NCBI GenBank assembly: GCA_021785005.1
Contig: JAJYGT010000093.1
Coordinates: 1-43,798 of the forward strand
Direction: 5' to 3'
Origin: Actinomycetes bacterium
GTDB lineage: Bacteria; Actinomycetota; Acidimicrobiia; Acidimicrobiales; Acidimicrobiaceae
Length of the DNA: 43,798 nt
The position numbers and the translations under genes were made by a program. Below the pieces are notes generated by a model. The model worked only from the letters and a program-made list of their open reading frames with translations, was not told the DNA's origin and did no database searches. The stretch's first letter is position 1. Each line of letters starts with the position of its first letter. Below are positions 19,341-19,828 of this stretch, one piece after another.

Positions 19341-19667
19341 ATGAACGACCTAAATAGAAACAGCATTTTTAGTGTTGTTTTAGGGTTGCTAGGCATGCTG
19401 GTGCTTGGGGAAACTATCGAGTTGCTATTGAGACCTTATGGCTCTTTGCTAGCTGAACTTTTAGTGGTTGGACTGGTTGTTTTAGCTGCGATTGGCAACC
19501 GAGCTGACGCAATTTCCTTAGTGAATTTCGAGAGTCTAGTGGCTATCCCGGCAATTTATCATTCCAACTTTGCTTGTTGTGGTAAGTGTGTGTCCGCGTC
19601 GAATTTGTCGTTGTCATCGGGACGTTTAGTGGCGCTTGCGGCAAAGGTTGAGGCTCGAGCGCGATGA
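19341..19667 (+). CDS. Small membrane protein, first gene of the glnB cluster
   Basis: Protein of 108 residues preceded by AAGGGGG. Two hydrophobic stretches (IFSVVLGLLGMLVLG and LLAELLVVGLVVLAAIG, residues 9-52) suggest two membrane helices, followed by a short soluble tail with CCGKC at about 78-82. I recognise no family. In many actinobacteria the gene before glnB encodes the ammonium transporter AmtB; this protein is far too short for that and shares no visible motif with it. Its stop overlaps the next start (ATGA at 19664), a sign of translational coupling. Confidence 0.65.
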   Translation: MNDLNRNSIFSVVLGLLGMLVLGETIELLLRPYGSLLAELLVVGLVVLAAIGNRADAISLVNFESLVAIPAIYHSNFACCGKCVSASNLSLSSGRLVALAAKVEARAR

Positions 19668-19828
19668 ATTCAAGTTTTGAGAATTATAAGGTGAACAAAG
19701 AAACTCGTCGGTACATCGCTTGCAACTTATGCACATCTCAAAGGATTGATTCGTTGGGACTATATTGTAATTGCCATAATGAGTTAGAAGTGGCTCATGA
19801 CCCAAACAGCGTTAGAAGGTTCGGTTAG
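19664..19828 (+). CDS. 54-residue cysteine-rich peptide between the membrane protein and glnB
   Basis: A short frame that overlaps the preceding gene by ATGA and ends five bases before glnB. It starts [16 protein letters not shown]. It contains CNLC at about residues 21-24 and CNCH at about 40-43, spaced as in a small zinc ribbon. The tight packing on both sides supports translation. No family is recognised. A small metal-binding or adaptor protein working with PII is possible but is only a guess. Its length leaves some doubt about whether it is a gene. Confidence 0.55.

Follow-up and report, generated by a model that had tools for sequence, protein, structure and literature searches.

Apparent loss of amtB from a GlnR-type PII operon in an Acidimicrobiaceae genome, with two orphan open reading frames ahead of glnB

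Ammonium transporters and PII proteins are usually encoded together. In Streptomyces coelicolor, they form the amtB-glnK-glnD operon under GlnR (PMC5826061), and GlnR operators consist of gTnAC/GaAAC half-sites separated by 6-bp spacers (PMC3087709, PMC5826061). Small proteins linked to PII have also been described. The 61-amino-acid protein sP36 of Methanosarcina mazei binds both AmtB1 and GlnK1 and is found in the cytoplasm or at the membrane depending on nitrogen status (PMC10714827), and PirA, PirC/CfrA, and PipX of cyanobacteria are small, conserved, soluble proteins for which binding to PII was experimentally shown (PMC7760959). Here, we analyzed a stretch of 43,798 nucleotides (the window), contig C12 in the draft genome (2.6 Mb in 176 contigs; 92% complete) of a member of the Acidimicrobiaceae, in which glnB and glnD are preceded by two small open reading frames (ORFs) rather than by amtB.

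Gene order and operator at the locus

The window carries a divergent copy of glnB, encoding PII (positions 19834 to 20172, + strand; Pfam P-II, 1.2e-30), followed by glnD, encoding the PII-modifying nucleotidyltransferase (20352 to 22661, + strand; Pfam GlnD_UR_UTase, 7.6e-15, with HD and ACT). glnD is present as a single copy, 54 to 63% identical to those copies of relatives that gave a long match. Immediately upstream lie orf108 (19341 to 19667, + strand; 108 codons, ATG start) and orf54 (19664 to 19828, + strand; 54 codons, ATG start), which overlap by ATGA, with 5 bases (19829 to 19833) separating orf54 from the glnB ATG at 19834. A sequence-only reading of this locus had described exactly this arrangement, together with two helices in the 108-residue protein and CNLC and CNCH motifs in the 54-residue peptide. 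Both motifs are present (CxxC...CxCH), and the two hydrophobic segments were supported by Kyte-Doolittle windows above 1.6, starting at residues 4 to 13 and 28 to 43. Ahead of orf108, direct reading gives a possible Shine-Dalgarno sequence, TTAAGGGGGCCTATG, in an AAGGGGG region (19333 to 19337, + strand).

Farther upstream, a fumarylacetoacetate hydrolase family (FAH) gene (17321 to 18208, + strand; Pfam FAA_hydrolase, 2.5e-67) and a gene for a small membrane protein with a SHOCT-like C terminus (18377 to 18685, − strand; Pfam SHOCT, 1.7e-5, at 24.8 bits slightly below the 27-bit cutoff) served as synteny markers. They are followed by orf69 (18911 to 19120, − strand), a small conserved gene without a family in Pfam or NCBIfam that is divergent from the nitrogen operon. 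Copies of orf69 (32 to 55% identical) occupy the same place in at least five genus relatives (G001, G002, G006, G007, and G009).

In G001, G002, and G009, the gene order is FAH (+), SHOCT gene (−), orf69 (−), amtB (+), glnB, and glnD, and the window matches this order gene for gene, except that orf108 and orf54 are found where amtB stands. Eight genus genomes (G001 to G005 and G008 to G010) have amtB directly upstream of glnB, and in each of these amtB ends at or overlaps the glnB start. In G007, the SHOCT gene, orf69, and amtB are followed by the contig end, and G013 has the FAH gene upstream of glnB-glnD.

A putative GlnR-type operator lies upstream of orf108 (19224 to 19261, + strand). It consists of four 5-bp half-sites (GTAAC-n6-GTAAC-n6-GAATT-n6-GTAAC) with the 6-bp spacers AGAGAA, AAGGGT, and GTTCCT, and this layout matches that of GlnR operators at the sequence level (consensus from PMC3087709). 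The site could be aligned across eight loci, namely, the window, the regions before amtB in G001, G002, G007, and G009, those before glnB in G006 and G011, and the region before the second glnB (glnB2) of the same genome. Within the 302 kb scanned, the four-half-site pattern occurred only twice, at positions upstream of the two glnB genes. The exact operator 16-mer has a single occurrence in each of six genus genomes, and a search of 35 further genomes did not find it. Of the features of a GlnR-regulated amtB-glnB-glnD operon, the upstream operator and the succession of glnB and glnD were thus found in the window, and amtB as the first gene was not. Because the flanking order is the same and the operator is kept upstream of orf108, the locus is, as judged from its sequence, a GlnR-type PII operon that has lost its amtB, and the earlier statement that the two ORFs take the place of amtB is borne out by the synteny of the flanks and the common operator.

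Loss of amtB in the genus and the second PII locus

Changes at this operon are not confined to the window. In G006 (L049, 8412 to 8624), the operator is followed about 200 bp on by glnB, with no amtB in between, and a search of the whole genome, which is 65% complete, did not reveal an amtB either. At this locus, orf69 is separated from the operator by several ORFs, among them a response regulator and a sensor kinase that form a two-component system. In G011 (L050, 660 to 3456), glnB and glnD are separated by a degenerate copy of amtB and, after it, a 500-amino-acid ORF that resembles a transposase and reads, by eye, as a TnpB-type transposase-associated protein. The operonic amtB has, by all appearances of these two loci, been lost or has decayed independently in G006 and G011. 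Genus g3 of the same family also has glnB-glnD without amtB upstream. Some genus members (L009, L010, L011, and L043) have amtB-glnB and then a second amtB before glnD, and G004 has a second glnB as well as a second amtB at this position; the amtB-glnB-glnD operon thus appears unusually labile.

The genome contains two PII genes, that of the window (19834 to 20172) and one at G000:C5 (L042, 5030 to 5368). In the draft genome (92% complete), one ammonium transporter gene was found; it likewise lies on C5, where it and the second glnB are divergently oriented. It is the sole PF00909 gene found and, at about 35% identity to the operonic AmtBs of relatives, is of another type. The terminal branch of the window GlnB is 0.34, versus 0 to 0.12 for most genus copies, and is one of the two longest in the tree. 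The second GlnB is conserved by comparison, with a short branch, and groups with copies of G006 and G011, whereas the window GlnB evolves fast. The T-loop of the window GlnB (YRGAEY, with Tyr51 and the Arg47 region) is intact; modification at the usual tyrosine and Amt docking therefore presumably remain possible, as we assume from what is known of the family.

Together, we favor, with moderate confidence, a lineage-specific loss of amtB that left a probable orphan membrane-protein gene and a doubtful peptide ahead of glnB. The ancestral operon would have resembled those of the relatives, with a GlnR-type operator ahead of amtB-glnB-glnD; the window lineage would then have lost amtB but retained glnB-glnD together with the operator and the genes on its flank. 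We infer loss of amtB here rather than any particular insertion event. The space between promoter and glnB would now be taken by orf108, which is probably real, and by orf54, translated or not, and both ORFs may be cotranscribed with glnB-glnD under nitrogen control. Since the overlaps resemble that of the amtB stop and the glnB start in relatives, translation along this chain, through the ATGA and up to the orf54 stop five bases short of the glnB start, would bring ribosomes to glnB by translational coupling; orf54 may be a mere bridge whose translation, if any, serves to carry ribosomes on. Ammonium transport and its control by PII would fall to the other amtB-glnB2 locus.

Coding status of orf108 and orf54

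Both ORFs were scored with codon statistics derived from a training set of 152 long ORFs drawn from 281 kb. The score of orf108, 0.155 bits per codon, was higher than those of 64% of gene segments, and none of the 92 spurious ORFs of comparable length reached it; the probability of a 108-codon open frame after a given ATG by chance was about 0.0003 to 0.005, depending on the background. orf108 is thus probably a real gene for a two-helix protein, with a predicted location in the membrane. By contrast, about 99.9% of gene segments scored higher than orf54, whose value of −0.155 falls among those of spurious ORFs, and composition gives no support to orf54 as a gene. Because richness in Cys and Asn alone can lower such a score, orf54 is doubtful as a gene rather than rejected. 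Single-sequence AlphaFold models were poor (mean pLDDT of 55 for orf108 and 58 for orf54).

Neither protein had an accepted match in Pfam, NCBIfam, PHROGs, or PDB sequences, and no convincing homologue of either was found in 42 genomes of the family, in 397 genomes of the order, or in viral contigs. A search of GTDB genome contigs, limited to close matches, yielded no homologue of orf108, and none of the sister genomes among those searched carries orf108 or orf54. Most probably, orf108 encodes a membrane protein and either is young or evolves fast, with expression from the old promoter. The CxxC-x11-CxC...LEV pattern of orf54 and an NCBIfam E value of 0.019 made an N-terminal zinc ribbon of threonine synthase tempting, but 300 of 2,000 cysteine-fixed shuffles scored as high, and this assignment was rejected as not significant. 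A phage origin was likewise rejected, as there was no real viral relative: two matches of orf54 span 18 residues of a seed-selected stretch, and PHROGs gave no match.

Alternatively, the 488 bp might be a noncoding relic or filler left by the decay or deletion of amtB, with both ORFs open by chance in the glnB leader. The lack of any homologue, the spurious-like statistics of orf54, and the visible decay of amtB in G011 and its deletion in G006 are in line with this explanation, which we nevertheless consider doubtful, given that the open frame of orf108 is improbable by chance and its codon score beats those of all spurious ORFs of its length class. A relic of amtB, in addition, is at odds with the disappearance of amtB similarity from every frame of positions 19341 to 19828. 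Against positions 18200 to 19833, the AmtBs of six relatives scored no higher in tblastn than shuffled sequence did, and the same was true of a 14-sequence AmtB profile run over six frames. orf108 as a fragment of AmtB was also rejected, as it ranked near the bottom among membrane windows for the AmtB profile (PF00909). No Rfam match was found over positions 18200 to 20400, nor did outstanding repeats, as insertion scars, flank the 488 bp.

Possible roles of orf108 and comparison with known systems

The sequence-only reading had further suggested that a small membrane protein plus a zinc-like peptide could form a new PII partner, and had named a lack of conservation of either frame in related genomes among the findings that would speak against this idea. 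It is unlikely that orf108 and orf54 together give PII a new membrane partner, on which it would dock instead of AmtB. In favor of such a role are the location of both ORFs in a PII operon whose GlnR-type operator is kept, the T-loop YRGAEY of the window PII, and the existence elsewhere of small PII partners and of membrane proteins encoded in PII operons (PMC10714827, PMC3023670, PMC7760959). However, neither ORF is conserved in any relative searched, which is the adverse finding so named, linkage of either to glnB is absent across the 42 family and 397 order genomes, and position is the sole positive evidence, with orf54 devoid of gene-like statistics. The long branch of the window GlnB fits relaxed constraint as well as it does a new role. 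The argument that this PII is left without a membrane dock is weakened by the presence of a further amtB beside the second glnB of this genome. A broader form of the proposal, in which a small membrane protein specific to this lineage (orf108, alone or together with orf54) took over the position of amtB and serves the diverged GlnB as membrane partner or modulator, is, in our estimation, quite improbable.

Least probable of all, and very unlikely, is an origin of orf108 by recombination from a copper-transport membrane domain like CopD (PF05425), of which it would be a fragment. Its best distant match, a CopC-CopD protein from the same order, shares a PYG...NR pattern and is 40% identical across 55 residues, and a post hoc CopD profile of 12 strong members (9.9 bits) placed orf108 above 3,000 block shuffles and above 130 membrane windows from this genome and relatives. 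However, the match is a post hoc pick of only about 10 bits, the best of about 400 genomes, a broader CopD profile gave 7.2 bits, a score reached by 8 of 3,000 shuffles, the conserved Lys of CopD is missing, and the Pfam scan of orf108 gave no CopD match.

On the favored reading of lineage-specific amtB loss, the operator and the PII-GlnD pair would have outlived the transporter in the window lineage. Since the operonic amtB also appears lost or decayed in two other genomes, the genus may offer a natural test of the role of PII-GlnD once it is uncoupled from its classic partner. Binding to PII, if shown, would make orf108 a dock of a new kind.

For the partner idea, sP36 of M. mazei, a small protein tied to both PII and ammonium transport, is the model, likened here by description. 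Whereas sP36 binds AmtB1 and GlnK1, and PirA, PirC/CfrA, and PipX are experimentally shown partners, orf108 and orf54 are at most hypothetical ones. The nlmA-glnK-amtB operon of Herbaspirillum seropedicae (PMC3023670), likened by description as well, differs from the window in that amtB is kept and the regulator is NtrC. The amtB-glnK-glnD operon of S. coelicolor resembles the window in the order of the PII gene and glnD and in the gTnAC/GaAAC operator with 6-bp spacers before the first gene; it differs in that the window, without amtB, has two orphan ORFs instead.
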